A stretch of 64,000 nt of DNA from Actinoplanes sp. NBC_00393 (GTDB lineage Bacteria; Actinomycetota; Actinomycetes; Mycobacteriales; Micromonosporaceae). Location of the stretch: positions 7,396,501 through 7,460,500 of the forward strand of contig NZ_CP107942.1 in NCBI RefSeq assembly GCF_036053395.1, written 5' to 3'. A model generated the notes under the pieces. That model saw nothing but the letters and a program-made list of their open reading frames with translations, made no database searches and was not told the origin of the DNA. A program made the translations under genes and the position numbers. Below are positions 845-58,690 of the stretch, in pieces. Positions within the stretch are counted from its first letter, which is position 1; each line of letters begins with the position of its first letter.

Positions 845-1723
845 ATGGGTCGGGTGTTACGTCGTGCCGTTGCCGCCCTGACCATCGTCGCTGTCGCAGC
901 GCTGAGCGCCTGCACCCCCGATTCGGAGGACCCCAACGCCACCACATCCGCCCCGGCTGCCGCTTCACCGTCCGCCGCCGGCGCGCCGGAGCAGAGCCTC
1001 GAGGTGCGGACCCAGGAGATCGAACTCAACCGGGACGGCAGCCGCCCGCTGCCCACGAAGGTCTGGCTGCCCACCGGCGGCGGACCCTACCCCCTGATCT
1101 ACTTCAGCCACGGCCTCACCTCGCAGCCTGACGACTACATCGACCTGCTGAACTCGTGGGCCCAGGCCGGCTTCGTGGTCGCCGCCCCGCGATACCCGCA
1201 CACGTGGAACCAGGCCACCGACTACCGGGCCGACGACGTGGTGAACCAGCCCGCTGACGCCCAGTTCGTCATCACCGAAGTGCTGAAGGCGCTGCCCGGC
1301 CAGATCGACCCCAACCGGATCGCCGCCGCCGGACACTCCGCGGGCGGCATCACCACGATCGGCCTCTTCAGCAGCAGCCGCGACGAACGACTCAAGGCCG
1401 GCCTGATCATTTCCGGCCGCCAGATGCCCCAGCCGGCGCCGTTCTCCGGCACGCCGGTCCCGCTGCTGTTCGTTCAGGGCAAGCTCGACACGACGGTCAC
1501 CTATGAGCAGGCGTACGGCGCCTACAACCAGGTGACCTGGCCGAAGGCCTTCCTGGAACTCCCGCAGGGCACCCACCTGCCGCACCGCGACCAGCCCGCC
1601 GTCGTCGCGACGACCACCACCGACTTCTGGCGCTGGTCCCTCTACGGCGACTCGGCCGCCAAGGCGCGCCTCCCCCAGGACGCCTCCTCCACCGGCGCGG
1701 CCGGGTTGGTGGGCACGCTTTAA
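845..1723 (+). CDS. Secreted lipoprotein, alpha/beta hydrolase (dienelactone hydrolase/PAF-acetylhydrolase-like)
   Basis: The protein starts with a lipoprotein signal peptide ending in the lipobox LSAC with Cys23, followed by a Thr/Pro/Ala-rich linker. The body is an alpha/beta hydrolase with nucleophile elbow GHSAGG (Ser about 165), an Asp after the strand VPLLFVQGKLDTTV and a late His in GTHLPHRD. It therefore looks like a cell-envelope esterase or lipase anchored on the outer face of the membrane. Length (292 aa) is normal for this group. The substrate cannot be deduced. The downstream spacer carries a repeat array described separately. Confidence 0.8.
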   Translation: MGRVLRRAVAALTIVAVAALSACTPDSEDPNATTSAPAAASPSAAGAPEQSLEVRTQEIELNRDGSRPLPTKVWLPTGGGPYPLIYFSHGLTSQPDDYIDLLNSWAQAGFVVAAPRYPHTWNQATDYRADDVVNQPADAQFVITEVLKALPGQIDPNRIAAAGHSAGGITTIGLFSSSRDERLKAGLIISGRQMPQPAPFSGTPVPLLFVQGKLDTTVTYEQAYGAYNQVTWPKAFLELPQGTHLPHRDQPAVVATTTTDFWRWSLYGDSAAKARLPQDASSTGAAGLVGTL

Positions 1724-2251
1724 CCCATTCGACGTACGGACGTCGCCATCTCGCTCTACGAGGCGGCCACCTGCCCGCTCCCGGCCCCAGCGCCCCCGCC
1801 GGGAAACGGCAGGTGGCCGCCGCCACTCCCGCACAGCTCCCGCCGCCCCCAGCTGACTCCCAGGGCTGTTTCCCGGCCCGGGAAGCAGCACTCACCGTCA
1901 GCCCACCAACCCAGCTGACACTCACGGTCGCTTCCCGGCCCGGGAAGCAGCACTCACCGTCAGCCCACCAACCCCCCCAGCTGACACTCACGGTCGCTTC
2001 CCGGCCCGGGAAGCAGCACTCAACGTCAGCTGGACAAGCCGGCTGGCTCTCACGGTTGTTTCGTGGGGTGGGGCAGCAGTCAGCCGGGGGTGGGCGCGGC
2101 CACGTGGTGTTTCCCGGCGGGCGCGCTGGGGCCGGGCCACGCGCCTACATCGCGTGGCTCGGCGGGACGGTGTCGATTTGGCGGGACGGTGCTGACCCGT
2201 ACCGAAAAATGGGCGTGAGCGGGAAGCCTGCCGCTACCAGAAACCGATGGG
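1724..2251. repeat. Convergent intergenic region with four 62-bp dyad repeats flanked by inverted elements
   Basis: No credible gene lies between the convergent hydrolase and oxidoreductase genes. Four repeat units begin at 1852, 1914, 1980 and 2042, with spacings of 62, 66 and 62 bp. Each unit runs from GCTGAC (GCTGGC in the last) to GTCAGC about 50 bp later, so each is an imperfect palindrome centred on TTCCCGGCCCGGGAA in the first three. The array is flanked by a 28-bp element at 1780-1807 whose inverted copy at 2109-2136 matches at 27 of 28 positions. The left element sits inside a larger hairpin with 14-bp arms at 1762-1775 and 1808-1821. Confidence 0.85.
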
Positions 2252-3193
2252 CTAGTGGGTGATGGCCACCTTGCCGAAGACTTCGCCGGAGGCGAGGCGG
2301 GCGAAGGCCTCGTCGATCGCGCTGAACGCGTGCGTGGAGTCGATGACCGGCTTGACCTTGCCGGAGGCGCAGAGTTCGAGGAGCTCGGCGAGTTCCGCCG
2401 CGGTGCCCATGCTGCTGCCGAGGATCTCCAGCTGCATGGCGAACACCCGCCGCAGGTCGATCTCGGCCTTGTGACCTGCGGTGGCACCGCACACGACGAT
2501 GCGGGCGCCGGGTGCGGAGCACTTCATCGAGTGGTCGAAAGTGGGTGAGCCGACCGATTCGACGACCACGTCGACGCGCTCGGGGAGGCGGGCGCCGGGT
2601 TCGACGGCGGTGGCGCCGAGGGCGGTGATCTTGTCGCGCTTCCACTGTTCGCGGCTGGTGGCGTAGACGCGCTTGCCGAGCGCGACCCCGAGGGCGACGG
2701 CCGCGGTGGCGACGCCGCCGCCGGCGCCCTGGACGAGGATCGCGGAGGCGTCGGCGACGCGGCCCCGGCTGACCAGCATGTGGTAGGCGGTGAGCCACGC
2801 GGTGGGCAGGCAGGCCGCCTCCACGAAGGACACGCCGGCGGGTTTGGGGATCAGGTTCTCCCTGGGTACGGCCACCTGCTCGGCGAGGGTGCCGGGGTGC
2901 CGCTCGGAGAGCAGTGAGTAGCCGCGCGGGTCGGCCTTGTCCTCGACGACCGGATGGAGCACGACCTCGTTGCCGTCCGGGTCGACGCCCGCGGCGTCGC
3001 AACCGAGGATCATCGGCAGCCGGTCGGCGGGCAGGCCGACGCCACGCAGTGACCAGATGTCGTGGTGGTTGAGGGAGCTGGCCCGGACCTGGACCGGCAC
3101 CCAGCCCTCGGGGGCGGAGAAGGGCAGGTCACCGACGGTGAGGCCGCTCAGCGGCGCGTCGGGCTGGAGTGAGGAGGCGTAGGCGGCGCGCAT
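2252..3193 (-). CDS. Zinc-type alcohol dehydrogenase/quinone oxidoreductase (MDR superfamily)
   Basis: This medium-chain dehydrogenase/reductase of 313 aa has an N-terminal GroES-like domain (SSLNHHDIWSLRG) and a Rossmann domain with the dinucleotide motif VQGAGGGVATAAV, followed by a segment ending in VVCGATAG. It probably reduces or oxidises a small carbonyl or quinone with NAD(P)H in the cytoplasm. I saw no cysteine cluster for structural zinc. Two start codons are adjacent (GTG-ATG) and the ATG is preferred. The substrate is unknown. Confidence 0.85.
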   Translation of the reverse strand: MRAAYASSLQPDAPLSGLTVGDLPFSAPEGWVPVQVRASSLNHHDIWSLRGVGLPADRLPMILGCDAAGVDPDGNEVVLHPVVEDKADPRGYSLLSERHPGTLAEQVAVPRENLIPKPAGVSFVEAACLPTAWLTAYHMLVSRGRVADASAILVQGAGGGVATAAVALGVALGKRVYATSREQWKRDKITALGATAVEPGARLPERVDVVVESVGSPTFDHSMKCSAPGARIVVCGATAGHKAEIDLRRVFAMQLEILGSSMGTAAELAELLELCASGKVKPVIDSTHAFSAIDEAFARLASGEVFGKVAITH

Positions 3194-8358: not shown

Positions 8359-8548
8359 AAGCGATAAGAAGTAACCGGTTGCTGCTTGTACGCGTTCCTA
8401 ATCCAGAAGCGCGGAACAGCCACCAAACACCAAAAGCTTGCTGACGCACTGGTGATCGTGCGGGTACAACCCGTCAAGCACCAGGCGCATGCATATAGGT
8501 AAACAGCACTGTTTTCATTACCCCATCCGAAACAAGGAGTTTGCCGCC

Positions 8549-8803
8549 ATGGACTGGCGTCACGATGCGATCTGCCGCGACGAGGACCCCGAGCTGTTCT
8601 TCCCGATTGGGACGTCCGGCCCGGCGCTCCTGCAGGTCGAGCAGGCCAAGGCCGTGTGCCGGCGGTGCCCGGTGACCGAGGAATGCCTCTCGTGGGCACT
8701 CGAGTCCGGTCAGGACGCCGGCGTATGGGGCGGGATGAGCGAAGACGAGCGGCGCGCAGTCAAGCGTCGTGGCGGTCTCCGGATCGGCGCCCCCACCGCT
8801 TGA
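8549..8803 (+). CDS. whiB1: WhiB1/WblE-type iron-sulfur transcription factor
   Basis: This 84-residue protein is a WhiB-family factor with Cys9, Cys37, Cys40 and Cys46 for a 4Fe-4S cluster and the turn GVWGG at residues 58-62, followed by a basic tail. The N-terminus MDWRHDAICRDEDPELFFP is nearly the WhiB1/WblE signature; WhiB1 is an essential NO-responsive partner of the housekeeping sigma factor in mycobacteria. The ATG at 8549 has AAGGAG upstream. The paired CRP-type sites upstream recall the known cAMP-CRP control of mycobacterial whiB1. Confidence 0.93.
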   Translation: MDWRHDAICRDEDPELFFPIGTSGPALLQVEQAKAVCRRCPVTEECLSWALESGQDAGVWGGMSEDERRAVKRRGGLRIGAPTA

Positions 8804-9148: not shown

Positions 9149-9570
9149 GCTGACCGCCACCGCTGCTTCCTGGCCCCTGATGGAGCCCTCAGCGTCAGCC
9201 GACCAGCTCAGCTGACCGCCAGTGTCGTTTCGCGACCGCTGAGGGAGCACTCGGTGTCAGCCGGACAGCTCAGCTGACCGCCAGTGTCGTTTCGCGACCG
9301 CTGAGGGAGCACTCGGTGTCAGCCGGACAGCTCAGCTGACCGCCAGTGTCGTTTCGCGACTGCTGAGGGAGCACTCGGTGTCAGCCGGACAGCTCAGCTG
9401 ACCGCCAGTGTCGTTTCGCGACCGCTGAGGGAGCACTCGGTGTCAGCCCAGCCGTCCGGCTGTCGCCTGATGTCGTATCCCGGCCGCCGAAGGAGCGCTC
9501 GGCGTCAGCCGGACGGTTCGGCTGACACCGACTGTCGTTGCCTCAGGCCGCGTACTCGGAAGGAGGCCGC
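9149..9570. repeat. Seven-copy 62-bp dyad repeat array
   Basis: Units start at 9149, 9211, 9273, 9335, 9397, 9459 and 9521, each exactly 62 bp apart; the last is partial. The central copies are almost identical, while the outer copies have diverged. Each runs from GCTGAC to GTCAGC and is an imperfect palindrome. The consensus aligns without gaps to the array at 1.85-2.09 kb at about 40 of 62 positions, including the shared blocks AGCACTC and GTCAGCC. The rest of the gene-free interval 8854-9775 shows nothing else I can identify. Confidence 0.9.
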
Positions 9571-9775: not shown

Positions 9776-10690
9776 TCAGGCCGCGGCAGCGAGCGGGGTG
9801 TCGAGGTTCGACTCAGCGCGCGCGATGACGAGCTGGACCAACTCCGGGGCCGCGCCCAGCGGCTCGGCGATCGCCACCGCGCCGGCTTGGGTGGCGGAGC
9901 GGACCGCTACGTCGTAGAGCAGGCCGGGCGCCAGGAAGTAGGCCGCCATCCCGACCCGGCGGGCGCCGGCGCCTTGTAGGGCGGCTACGGCCTCTCCGGC
10001 GGTGCCGCCCGGGCCGGAGGCGTAACCGACCGCGGCCGGCAGCCCCAGGCGCGCACCGAGCGCCGCCGCGGCCGCCGCGACTGTCTCGCGGGCAGCGGCA
10101 TTCCGGGTCCCGGCCGCAGCCAGCACCACGGCGTCCAAGCCGGCACTCGACGAACACCCACGGTCGCCGCCTGCCATACGCAGAGGCTCGTCCAGCGGGA
10201 CGTGTCCCGAAGGCGGACGGCTCGCCTCCAGCGAGACGCCCTTCAAACGCGAAAGGCCGCGGTCGGCATTCAGCGGAGTCTCCGGCAAACGCCGGCAGGC
10301 AGCGTCCAGACGGCGGCTGACCGCGGCGAGCAGCAGCGGCGACGCCGGGCCCAGCACATCGGTAGCGGTGACCGAGACCGGCAGGGATTCGGCGGCACGG
10401 ACGACCGCGGGCAGGTCGACACGGCCGTGGTACGCCGCAGTCAGCAGCAGCGGCACCAGGACAGCGCGGCGGGTGCCGAGTGAGGCCAGGATGTCGAGCG
10501 GGCGAGGGCCGTCGTGGTCCAGGTAGGACGCCTGGACGTCCCACTCCGGCCGGGCCACCTGGACCGCCCGGGCCAGTGACTCGGTGGCCACAGCGGCCCG
10601 GGGGTCCCGGCTGCCGTGTGCCACCAGGACCACCGCGGGCCGGCCGGACAAGCCGTCACGGCCGCGGGGGGTCAGACGTGCAGGCCGCAT
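9776..10690 (-). CDS. Sirohydrochlorin chelatase (CbiX/SirB-like)
   Basis: The protein has the chelatase N-terminal signature VVLVAHGSRDPRA and the metal-binding region LLLTAAYHGRVDLP, followed by a second related half. Two-domain CbiX/SirB enzymes insert iron or cobalt into sirohydrochlorin. As the last gene of the sulfite reductase operon it most probably supplies siroheme, the cofactor of the reductase, so ferrochelation is favoured (inference from context). The ATG at 10690 overlaps the end of cysH by 19 bp; a TTG at 10651 is an alternative start. A Gly/Ser-rich insertion lies between the halves. Confidence 0.85.
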   Translation of the reverse strand: MRPARLTPRGRDGLSGRPAVVLVAHGSRDPRAAVATESLARAVQVARPEWDVQASYLDHDGPRPLDILASLGTRRAVLVPLLLTAAYHGRVDLPAVVRAAESLPVSVTATDVLGPASPLLLAAVSRRLDAACRRLPETPLNADRGLSRLKGVSLEASRPPSGHVPLDEPLRMAGGDRGCSSSAGLDAVVLAAAGTRNAAARETVAAAAAALGARLGLPAAVGYASGPGGTAGEAVAALQGAGARRVGMAAYFLAPGLLYDVAVRSATQAGAVAIAEPLGAAPELVQLVIARAESNLDTPLAAAA

Positions 10691-25140: not shown

Positions 25141-26053
25141 CCCCCGCCCTCCTCCAGCCGACCGCACCCTCCCATTCCTGCCTGACCGACGGCCGAGCAG
25201 ACCCCAGCCGCCGCCCACGCACCCAACAAACCTCTCGAAACCCGCCTGCCGGGCGGCTCACATCCGCCAGCCGCCACTCAAGCACCCAACAGCCCCCTCA
25301 TTCCATGCCTGACCGACGGCCGAGCAGACCCAGCCGCCACCCACGCACCCAACAAACCACTCGAAACCCGCCTGCCGGGCGGCTCACATCCGCCAGCCGC
25401 CACCCACGCACCCAACAGCCCCCTCATTCCATGCCTGACCGACGGCCGAGCACACCCAGCCGCCACCCACGCACCCAACAAACCACTCGAAACCCGCCTG
25501 ACGGGCGGCTCCCATCCGCCAGCCGCCACTCAGGCACCCAACAGCCCCCTCATTCCATGCCTCGCCGACGGCCGAGCAGACCCAGCCGCCGCCCACGCAT
25601 GTAACGACGGCTGCATTCCGTGTTCCTGCGCCAGCCGAGCCCGCTGAGCTGGCACCTGCGCACGTAACAGCGCTCCTATTCGGTGCGCCTGCCAATCGGC
25701 TTCGGGGGTGCTGGCAGGCAGGTCTGGTGTCAGCCCGGCCGGAGGGTTGGCGCCTGGGTGGCTGGGCCCGGCATCTGGTCGCTGGGCCCGGGCGGCGCCT
25801 GGTCACTAGGCCCGGGCCCTGGTCGCTGGGCCGCGGCGCCTGGTCACTGGGCCCGGGCACCTGGTCACTGGGCCCGGGCACCTGGTCGCTGGGCCCGGGC
25901 ACCTGGTCGCTGGGCCCGGGCGCCCGGGTGGGCTGAGCCGGGTGCCTGGGTGGCTGAGCCGGGTGGCTGGGTGGGTGGCTGGGTGGAGTGGGTCTGGGCG
26001 GGAGGGCCTGGACCTGTGCGGCTGTGGCGTGGTGGATGGACTAGCTTGCTGGC
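25141..26053. repeat. Gene-free repeat region between rsgA and hisN
   Basis: About 900 bp without a credible gene. From 25205 to about 25640 the sequence is built on a strict 63-bp period with starts at 25205, 25268, 25331, 25394, 25457, 25520 and 25583. Two variants alternate (one with ACCCAACAAACC, one with ACCCAACAGCCCCC), making a 126-bp higher-order unit. From 25775 to about 25925 seven units of about 21 bp follow, each CTGGTC-(A/G)CTGGGCCCGGGC or close to it. A G-rich tract with GGGTGGCTGGGT leads to hisN. Confidence 0.85.
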
Positions 26054-47350: not shown

Positions 47351-48410
47351 TCGGTAGGTAAAGCTTAGCTCGTCCCCCACGCACCCCCCACACCGGGTCG
47401 GCTTTCCGCCTCCCCACCCCCACATTCCCATCCTGACCTGGCCTCCCGACTCCCTCATCAAAGGCCGCGGCAATGGAGGCCCCGCCCAGGCGCCTTCCAA
47501 CCCTCAGGCCCGCCCAAGCCGGGTAGGTCGGCCGGGTCCAGTCGGAGCGCGGATGGGCGCATAGGGCAAGGCGGACCGGTGGAGCCGGGGTGGGTAGAAG
47601 CCGGCCGGACCGGCGGAGCACCCGACCAACAACGCCAGGCCCAGCCGACCCGGCGGGCCAAGAGCCAGGAAAGCCAGGAAAGCCGACCCGGTGGGGCAAG
47701 GCAAGGGCTAGGGCCAGCCGGCCCGGTGGGGCCACGGACCCGTAGAGCGCGCAGCCCGGTGGGCCAGCCAGCCCAGCGCGCGGCCAGCTCAGCTTCAGGG
47801 GAGGCCAGTTGGCCAGCGGGGCTGGCTGTCCGGTGAAGTCGGCGGTCCGCTGGGGGCGGGCGGGCCAGTGGGGATTGGCGGACGTGAGGCCTGACGGACC
47901 AGTGGGACGGGACGGGTGCGAGCCGGCCAATCAGAGGGGTCGGAAGGACCGTTGAAGGGTCAGGCCGATGGAGGACCAGGCCGATGGAGGACCAGGCCGA
48001 TGGAGGAGCGGGCCGATGGAGGACCGGGCCGATGGAGGACCGGGCCGATGGGCCGGGCCGATGGGCCGGGCCGATGGGCCGGGCCGATGGGCCGGGCCGA
48101 CGGAGGAGTCATAATGCCGGGCAGCCGGTGGAGCGAGCCGGCTCGCTGGACCCGCCAGGTCGGCGGGGCGAGCCAACCCGGCCAGAGCGAGCTAGTCCAG
48201 CCGGGCGAGCCAGGTCGGCGCGATGGGCCAGGCTGGCAGGCACGCGGCAGCGACCGTGACGACAGCGACAGCGACGGTCGGGCGGTCCGGCGCAGGTCGA
48301 ACGCGCGTGACCGTACAACAAGGGGTTTTCGGCAAGCGCAAGCGATGCCACCCACAGCAACCACCGCAACGTGGGTTTCCGGGGCTCGGCCCCGGAGCAG
48401 AAACGCGAAG
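47351..48410. repeat. Minisatellite-rich spacer between the two initiator tRNA genes
   Basis: No credible gene. From 47963 the core GGCCGATGG recurs every 16 bp (47963, 47979, 47995, 48011, 48027, 48043) and then every 13 bp (48056, 48069, 48082, 48095). Degenerate G-rich stretches around 47560-47850 read as Pro/Gly-rich low-complexity peptide in all frames. Confidence 0.8.
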
Positions 48411-57203: not shown

Positions 57204-58550
57204 GTGACGGACATACCGCGCCGCGCGGCTTCCCGGACGGCCAAGCTCGCAGCCCTCCCACTCGGCTTCGCCGGGCGTACTGCTCTGGGGCTGGGCAAGA
57301 GAGCCGTCGGGATCGCCACCGACGTCATCTCCGCCGACATCCAGCAACGCACCGCCGAGCAACTGTTCAGCGTTCTCGGGCAGCTCAAGGGTGGTGCGAT
57401 GAAATTCGGCCAGGCCCTGTCGGTGTTCGAGGCGGCACTGCCGGACGAGATGGCCGGCCCCTACCGGCAGGCGCTCACCAAGCTCCAGGAGGCGGCGCCG
57501 CCGATGCCGGTGGCGAACGTGCACAAGGCGCTCGCCCAGCAACTCGGGCCGGACTGGCGGGACAGGTTCGCCGAGTTCGACGACAGCCCGGCCGCCGCGG
57601 CCAGCATCGGCCAGGTGCACCGCGCGGTGTGGAAACTCCCGCCGGCCCGGCGCAACGCGAAACCGAAGCTGCTGCCGGTCGCAGTGAAGGTGCAGTATCC
57701 GGGCGCCGGCGACGCGCTGATCGCCGATCTCAAGCAACTCGGCCGTCTCGCCGGCATGTTCAAAATCATCCAGCCGGGGATCGACGTGAAGCCGCTCCTC
57801 GCCGAACTGCGGGACCGGGTCACCGAGGAGCTCGACTACGAGATGGAGGCGGAGACCCAGCGGGCCTTCGCCGAGGCGTACCGGGACGATCCGGAGATCT
57901 TCGTGCCCCGGGTGGTCGCCTCGGCGCCCCAGGTCCTGGTCACCGAGTGGGTCGACGGCACCCCGCTGGCCCGGGTGATCGCCGACGGCACCCCGGAGGA
58001 GCGCGATGAGGCCGGCCGGCTGATGGCGATCCTGCACTTCTCGGCGCCGGCCCGGGCCGGGCTGTTGCACGCCGACCCGCACCCCGGCAACTTCCGGATC
58101 CTCGCCGACGGCCGCCTCGGAGTGATCGATTTCGGTGCCGTCGCCCGTCTCCCCGAGGGCCACCCCGAGCCGATCGGCCGGCTGGTGCGGCTCGCGCTGG
58201 ACGGTGACGCCCAGGCGGTGGTGGACGGGTTGCGCGAGGAGAAGTTCATCAAGGCGGACGACGAGATCGACGCGGAGGCGGTGCTCACCTTCCTCCGGCC
58301 GATGATCGAACCGGTCGCGGTGGAGCGGTTCCGGTTCACCCGTACCTGGTTGCGGGCCGAAGCCACCCGGCTGGGCAGTCCGCGGTCGCCGGCTTACCAG
58401 TTGAGCCGCAAGCTCAACCTGCCGCCGTCCTACCTGCTGATCCACCGGGTCACGCTGGGCTCGATCGGGGTGCTCAGCCAGCTGGAGGCGGAGGCGCCGT
58501 ACCGGCAGATCCTGATCGACTGGTTGCCGGGTTTCGCCCCGACTCCCTGA
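57204..58550 (+). CDS. ABC1/AarF/UbiB-family kinase-like protein
   Basis: The 448-residue protein has the ABC1 signature motif KFGQALSVFEAALP in its N-terminal extension, the Ala-rich nucleotide loop (AAAASIGQVHRAV), the catalytic region LLHADPHPGNFRI and the metal motif VIDFGAVARLPEG. ABC1 proteins are atypical kinases or ATPases tied to quinone and lipid homeostasis. In mycobacteria the homologue (Rv3197) lies beside whiB7 and was linked to macrolide resistance, which matches the context here. Confidence 0.93.
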   Translation: MTDIPRRAASRTAKLAALPLGFAGRTALGLGKRAVGIATDVISADIQQRTAEQLFSVLGQLKGGAMKFGQALSVFEAALPDEMAGPYRQALTKLQEAAPPMPVANVHKALAQQLGPDWRDRFAEFDDSPAAAASIGQVHRAVWKLPPARRNAKPKLLPVAVKVQYPGAGDALIADLKQLGRLAGMFKIIQPGIDVKPLLAELRDRVTEELDYEMEAETQRAFAEAYRDDPEIFVPRVVASAPQVLVTEWVDGTPLARVIADGTPEERDEAGRLMAILHFSAPARAGLLHADPHPGNFRILADGRLGVIDFGAVARLPEGHPEPIGRLVRLALDGDAQAVVDGLREEKFIKADDEIDAEAVLTFLRPMIEPVAVERFRFTRTWLRAEATRLGSPRSPAYQLSRKLNLPPSYLLIHRVTLGSIGVLSQLEAEAPYRQILIDWLPGFAPTP

Positions 58551-58690
58551 TCGACCGGCCGCGGCTGCCCGGCTTCGTCCCGGCGCCCTGATCGGCCGGC
58601 CCTGGCTGCCCGGCTTGGCTCCGGCGCTTTGATCGGCCGGCCCTGGCTGCCCGGCTTGGCTCCGGCGCTTTGATCGGCCGGCCGCCCGGC
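58548..58690. repeat. 41-bp tandem repeat after the ABC1 gene
   Basis: The motif TGATCG recurs at 58548, 58589, 58630 and 58671, exactly 41 bp apart; the second and third full units are nearly identical. It begins at the ABC1 stop codon and ends 37 bp before the terminator hairpin. Confidence 0.85.

Follow-up and report, generated by a model that had tools for sequence, protein, structure and literature searches.

Palindromic repeats of Actinoplanes that favour convergent gene ends and occur as solitary copies and tandem arrays

Dyad arrays of the window

The window, a stretch of 64,000 nucleotides from the genome of Actinoplanes sp. NBC_00393, contains two arrays of imperfect palindromes, A and B. 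Each lies between the 3' ends of two converging genes, as the first-pass annotation had stated and as our gene calls, made with a home-made codon-score caller, confirmed. The features are as follows.

845..1723, + strand, alpha/beta hydrolase gene, converging on array A
1852..2030, no strand, array A, three 51-bp dyads (starts 1852, 1914 and 1980; spacings 62 and 66)
2042..2085, no strand, fourth unit of array A, degraded (29 of 62 positions as in unit 2 of array A)
2252..3193, - strand, zinc-binding dehydrogenase gene, converging on array A
8489..8803, + strand, WhiB-family gene, converging on array B (alternative start 8549 from the gene caller)
9149..9509, no strand, array B, six 51-bp dyads (starts 9149, 9211, 9273, 9335, 9397 and 9459; 11-bp linkers)
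9521..9544, no strand, left half of the seventh unit of array B (end coordinate set by eye; 24 of 62 positions as in unit 2)
9776..10633, - strand, CbiX-family gene, converging on array B
25173..25599, no strand, third array, of a GCCGCC-ended class (51-bp dyad, 63-bp period, two unit types alternating)

The unit starts of array B, from 9149 to 9521, are separated by exactly 62 bp, as had been claimed. Of the seven copies counted in the first-pass annotation, six are full dyads, whereas the seventh, starting at 9521, preserves a left half followed by an unrecognisable right half. The proposed bounds, GCTGAC and GTCAGC, are valid in general, every full dyad closing with GTCAGC, with the exception that the dyad at 9459 opens with GCTGTC. 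When units 1 to 7 are compared with unit 2 over 62 bp, they match at 47, 62, 62, 61, 55, 46 and 24 positions, the centre of the array (units 2 to 4) being near-identical, as previously noted, and its ends degenerate. In array A, the spacings including the degraded unit are 62, 66 and 62 bp. The two arrays had been described as aligning without gaps at about 40 of 62 positions; their second units do share 40 of 62 (about 17.5 for shuffled letters), but the uneven spacing of array A means that the arrays as a whole are not strictly gap-free. The pattern GCTGAC-N36-42-GTCAGC occurs at 8 sites in the window, against 0.10 in shuffled sequences.

In the third array, the alternation of the two unit types generates a higher period of 126 bp. 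Other tandem repeats of the window, at 25749-25985, 47961-48107 and 58520-58683, with periods of 21, 16 and 41 bp, are apparently unrelated to the dyads.

Several identities were discarded. The spacers are not unique, the 11-bp linkers recurring between the central units of array B, which does not fit a CRISPR. A search of the whole window with the curated covariance models of Rfam at gathering thresholds returned two tRNAs only, so no known Rfam family accounts for the arrays. Array B had no match in a plasmid search, nor one solitary congener copy in a phage search, and carriage by plasmids or phages was set aside.

Abundance, distribution and gene context

The genome of NBC_00393 is a single contig of 11,433,213 bp, in which the pattern GCTGAC-N36-42-GTCAGC has 552 matches, versus 4 for a reversed control pattern. 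The pattern reads identically on both strands, so that the 552 matches equal the number of sites, although a few of those listed look unrelated by eye. The further copies that the first-pass annotation had proposed to look for, both in this genome and in congeners, are thus present. A sample of 20-kb stretches, 80 of them at even spacing, together with the window (1.664 Mb, 14% of the genome), was then searched with a profile, giving 114 units at E <= 0.01. When congener-profile matches are added, the units fall into 36 clusters, at least two units being present in 26. Most units of this sample belong to arrays of 2-8 units, and the distance between neighbours is 62 bp in 38 cases, 63 bp in 38 and another value in 5 (76 of 81 being 62 or 63 bp). 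Two additional classes share the 51-bp dyad and the 62/63-bp period: a second one with GCTGGC ends and the inner motif GCATGGAATG, and a third one, which includes the array at 25173-25599, with GCCGCC ends and the inner motif CAGGCA. The GCCGCC-ended class is also present in further stretches of the genome. Profiles of these two classes had no match in the congener stretches examined. Around 3-4 Mb of the genome, seven sampled stretches contain zero units, the other whole intervals containing 3-21.

The GCTGAC pattern gave 4-37 matches in 39 relatives, which suggested a feature of a single species, an idea that was abandoned when the profile search revealed other end motifs. Thirty-three of 67 genus genomes contain a match to the class I profile and 20 contain at least 14, among up to 88 candidates scored per genome and with both strands of a palindrome counted separately. 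When a profile of congener copies was applied to 200 genomes of the family (up to 29 candidates scored per genome, strands again counted separately), 17 matched, 14 from Actinoplanes and three from two other genera, each of these three with two weak strand-matches. From these profile searches, the repeat family appears to be largely confined to Actinoplanes. Some congeners carry comparable copy numbers with an inner motif of their own: GCTGG-N41-CCAGC was found at 560 sites in genome G082 (control, 153), at 717 in G066 (control, 82) and at 132 in A. utahensis (control, 120). The total of the latter barely exceeds its control, yet the inner motif is present in 38 of the first 50 listed places. 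Genome G081 is A. utahensis, since its locus L249 shows no difference from the named locus L186 in the flanks that were compared.

The outer GCTG and CAGC are common to the species, the inner bases being species-specific on a skeleton that, in both arms, consists mostly of A11, G14, G17, T20 and C21. These conserved inner bases fall every three positions (A..G..G..TC), and the intervening dinucleotides vary by species. In the flanks of 120 solitary congener copies, the first three bases are mostly C (111), G (103) and G (95), and the core should therefore be considered as about 57 bp, that is, the 51-bp dyad with CCG/CGG ends. The spacing of 63 bp recurs in congeners, as do those of 73, 83 and 107 bp. 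In genome G010, locus L122:100-1006 contains nine copies of the palindrome with a period of 107 bp instead of 63 and homotypic arms at columns 15-16, and in G066 (C1:1844456-1845388) at least 15 units follow one another every 63 bp, ten of which have the same 51-bp sequence.

In NBC_00393, 35 clusters were placed with respect to called genes: 21 lie in convergent settings, 9 in tandem ones and 1 in a divergent one, and the remaining 4 are at the edges of stretches. Overlap with a called gene never exceeds 10% of the cluster length. The background comprises 712 gaps of at least 60 bp, of which 113 are convergent, 377 tandem and 222 divergent. The enrichment at convergent gene ends anticipated by the first-pass annotation is therefore clear: 21 of the 31 classified clusters are convergent, compared with 113 of the 712 gaps, which gives p ~1e-10 when gaps are counted and 2e-7 when their length is considered. 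Divergent gaps are avoided (1 of 31, p ~1e-4). Among 29 congener clusters, 13 are convergent, 9 tandem and 5 divergent, one lies inside a called gene and one at an edge; solitary congener copies have a median distance of 71 bp to the facing stop codon and 235 bp to the start codon. The family thus runs to hundreds of copies; where their context was examined, most lie between genes, and they favour convergent gene ends.

Comparison of gaps between conserved genes indicates that many sites differ between related species. The CysH-type protein adjoining array B has its nearest relatives in A. aureus (93%) and A. regularis (92%) among the 80 named of 148 loci, a result that situates NBC_00393 within or close to Actinoplanes. 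The genes flanking array B are conserved; the gap that measures 704 bp in NBC_00393 is reduced to 39 bp in A. aureus, and A. utahensis has one perfect palindrome at this site. Among the 80 named loci, profile matches were restricted to L186 (A. utahensis), with one additional weak match away from the array B site, and L154 (A. flavus), whose match lies elsewhere in the locus. A solitary copy located between converging genes in NBC_00393 corresponds to a gap of 12 bp in A. flavus. In 16 cross-species comparisons outside the array B site, the partner gap is shorter and below 100 bp in 9, and in 7 of these 9 it is too short to hold a dyad; one species pair, counted in both directions among the 16, has copies in both species. 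No target-site duplication was evident by eye in the single clean pair of filled and empty sites.

Arm symmetry in solitary and tandem copies

Among 80 distinct units of NBC_00393, mostly from arrays, 74.0% of the arm positions are paired, compared with 75.5% after shuffling (498 of 500 shuffles equal to or above the observed value), whereas 57 units consisting mostly of congener copies reach 87.3% against 80.0% (none of 500 shuffles as high). Thus, the compensatory arm changes that had been proposed as a check fail in the array units to which the first-pass annotation referred but exist in solitary copies of relatives, and our early view that covariation was absent from the whole family was overturned by those solitary congener copies. 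The contrast is due to the context of the copies, solitary or in arrays, as revealed by splitting them within single genomes. All shuffle counts given here should not be read as strict probabilities, since the shuffles ignore the relatedness of copies.

The cleaner test comes from G082, A. utahensis and G066, whose copies were listed by outer bases only and are the first places of each genome: the first 50 in G082, all used (48 distinct); 38 of the first 50 in A. utahensis, 12 without the inner motif having been removed by eye; and 97 of the first 100 in G066 (74 distinct), with 3 removed by eye for the same reason. The pairing of solitary copies is 0.945 in G082 (0.893 shuffled; n=10) and 0.893 in A. 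utahensis (0.781 shuffled; n=32), and none of 1000 shuffles was as high in either case. In contrast, G082 units with close neighbours pair at 0.795 (0.823 shuffled; n=38) and G066 units with a listed neighbour at 0.655 (0.691 shuffled; n=72 distinct), all 1000 shuffles being equal to or above the observed value in both genomes; with one G066 unit per array (n=20), the count is 989 of 1000. No covariation signal was obtained from ten G082 units taken one per cluster with their contexts unseparated.

The solitary sets of five genomes, which include copies picked by high model score, gave, out of 500 shuffles, 2 as high as observed in NBC_00393 (n=10), 0 in G010 (n=11), 0 in G014 (n=12), 0 in A. 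utahensis (n=16) and 14 in G082 (n=6). For array units, 487 of 500 shuffles equalled or exceeded the observed pairing in NBC_00393 (n=114), 423 in G010 (n=29), 188 in A. utahensis (n=6) and 439 in G082 (n=31), the exception being G014, whose array units co-vary (n=14; 0 of 500 as high). With one unit per array, the deficit in NBC_00393 is weak (n=26; 92% of 300 shuffles equal to or above the observed value). Most solitary copies come close to perfect palindromes, with arms that co-vary in all five genomes; the solitary copies of NBC_00393 are less perfect (15.6 of 22 pairs). Array units mostly lack covariation (four of the five genomes, and also G066). In NBC_00393, G082 and G066, the arms of array units match even less than their shuffles. 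Predicted hairpins are weaker in array units than in solitary copies in all five genomes, the solitary sets being score-selected; the energy changes from -47.0 to -34.3 kcal/mol in G082 and from -26.9 to -24.4 in NBC_00393.

In many arrays of NBC_00393, the inner motif of most units is altered in a single arm, which is on the same side throughout the array. At columns 15-16, 69 of 101 array units combine a CT arm with one that reads TC or TT, 27 have CT on both arms and five have other combinations. Counted by arrays, 22 of 31 are heterotypic; CT is retained in both arms in 8, and neither arm retains it in 1 (pooled-arm permutation, p 0.0093). Taking into account that the changed arm, as counted by eye, is always on the same side in the 20 arrays with at least two heterotypic units, the arrays are arranged head-to-tail. 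Heterotypic units account for 11 of 32 in G082 and for none of 32 in G010, which is homotypic at the marker positions. A rule by which an unchanged terminal unit would occupy a fixed side of the array failed on inspection by eye. Identity in NBC_00393 is 0.85 within arrays and 0.65 between them, and central units are more alike than those at the edges (identity to the array consensus, 0.947 for inner units and 0.817 for edge units).

Possible origin and comparison with known systems

The reading that we favour, with about even chances of being right, is that these sequences are REP/BIME-like dispersed palindromes located at transcript ends, whose solitary copies would be kept symmetric, most simply by template switching, and whose tandem duplication would lead to satellite-like arrays. 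Replication template switching has been proposed for RNA stems (PMC8794818). Here, covariation without a consistent strand signal fits this process, in which one arm would serve as the template of the other, and we infer from the sequences that template switching operates in the palindrome family. Thus, switching between arms during replication would keep or make solitary copies symmetric, perhaps helped by a hairpin role at transcript ends. A copy with diverged arms could then give rise to tandem duplicates through unequal exchange or slippage. Its unlike arms would allow it to escape correction, or loss as a perfect palindrome, so that arrays may grow, their units being homogenised with each other as in satellite DNA. 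The position at gene ends may be where such DNA harms least, and copies located there could have a two-sided effect on transcription end or supercoil buffering. Against this favoured reading stand the covarying array units of G014, the homotypic arrays of G010 and the imperfect solitary copies of NBC_00393, together with the weak deficit in this genome when one unit per array is considered and the 439 of 500 shuffles of the G082 array set.

It is possible, but unlikely, that the palindromes are selected RNA structures, either two-sided terminators or hairpins stabilising 3' ends, with arrays as stacked terminators. Their placement at convergent ends, close to the facing stop codon in congener solitary copies, the strong hairpins predicted for these copies and the covariation of solitary arms agree with such a role, which is difficult to reconcile with array units showing weaker hairpins and arms that do not co-vary. 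Intrinsic terminators consist of a GC-rich hairpin followed by a T run. The Actinoplanes family has the same GC-rich hairpin potential soon after stop codons, but it lacks the U-tract and is repetitive and sequence-specific: no T run was found after array A or array B, no terminator-like site exists inside either, and TTT appears in only 6 of the 120 flanks of solitary congener copies. The classical U-tract terminator was therefore rejected as a form of the transcript-end structures suggested earlier. A hairpin acting in RNA predicts more G-T than A-C on the transcribed strand. This excess was seen in solitary congener copies at convergent sites, when each was oriented by whichever stop was nearer (21 vs 7, p 0.013), and a smaller first set of 23 classified congener clusters agrees. 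However, copies in same-strand contexts gave 14 vs 14 and the two contexts pooled 35 vs 21 (p 0.08), the solitary copies of NBC_00393 gave 8 vs 16 and its arrays 184 vs 172, and congener arrays at convergent sites gave the reverse (54 vs 81, p 0.025). Since the larger set is mixed, the strand bias was not relied upon.

A role of the arrays as iteron-like platforms for a putative sequence-specific DNA-binding protein seems distinctly unlikely. With units separated by about six helical turns (62/63 bp), such a protein would find its sites in phase. This would account for the dominance of these spacings in NBC_00393 and the recurrence of 63 bp in congeners, for half-site positions that are conserved in both arms while the remainder varies, and for array arms that vary independently, as binding sites may. 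Spacings of 73, 83 and 107 bp are recurrent as well, and binding alone does not explain covariation at the variable positions of solitary copies. An extension of this proposal, which we regard as similarly doubtful, presents the arrays as polar loading platforms made of asymmetric dyads, in which selection would keep the half-sites unlike at a spacing of about six turns for a putative protein whose specificity would co-evolve with each species' inner motif, solitary near-perfect palindromes being the seed state that is amplified once symmetry breaks.

Every copy being a separate insertion of a palindrome mobilised by a transposase (REPIN/RAYT, MITE or another mobile type) is very unlikely: the short gaps of A. 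aureus and A. flavus at occupied sites and the perfect palindrome of A. utahensis would suit it, as would the higher frequency of Y1_Tnp, the RAYT-type domain, in repeat-rich genomes (10/20 vs 11/47 in the others, Fisher p 0.045), but 10 of the 20 repeat-rich genomes have no match to it, the single clean empty site gives no sign by eye of target-site duplication, the many distinct near-perfect palindromes within one genome do not resemble copies of one master, and the arrays are head-to-tail with fixed polarity. Y1_Tnp was found in 21 of 67 genus genomes, with two partial matches in NBC_00393. RAYT as a requirement for the mobile palindromes suggested by the first-pass annotation was thus discarded on gene content, though the weak association stands.

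According to PMC3116915, REP/REPIN sequences are short extragenic palindromes present in hundreds of copies per genome, as singles and clusters and in several sequence groups, features that are shared by the Actinoplanes family. The latter is repetitive, extragenic (with one exception inside a called gene, among 29 congener clusters) and palindromic. Regarding the REPIN unit of two inverted REPs, the dyad has two inverted arms, and both solitary and tandem units are common; the Actinoplanes element looks more like a single dyad of 51-57 bp than a REP pair, and its arrays have a 62/63-bp tandem period and unlike arms. The family has not been filed as REP/REPIN because the RAYT-type gene, when searched for, was missing from half of the repeat-rich genomes and only partially matched in NBC_00393. 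An abundance like that of REPs, with over 500 to 700 pattern sites in a genome, is also reached by genomes that gave no RAYT-type match. Searches of open-access papers for this palindrome family listed no report of it, as judged from titles and abstract openings, which is weak evidence, as most subscription journals fall outside them.

The BIMEs of enterobacteria, located at transcript ends, are characterised by the binding of gyrase or IHF, or by transcription attenuation. They too are intergenic palindromes that cluster close to where genes end, but their sequence and unit structure differ, and the Actinoplanes family is likened to them in placement and abundance.

The coexistence in one genome of solitary, co-varying copies and tandem, unlike-armed ones separates two forces that tend to be confounded, selection on hairpins and mechanical copying of arms, and is a warning that the arms of a bacterial repeat may co-vary without an RNA function. 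The family constitutes a natural and testable case of how palindromes spread and become stable tandem DNA. With satellite-type repeats, its arrays share the head-to-tail order, the homogeneous centre and the degenerate edges, differing in that they are small (2-8 units in the NBC_00393 sample), intergenic and bacterial.
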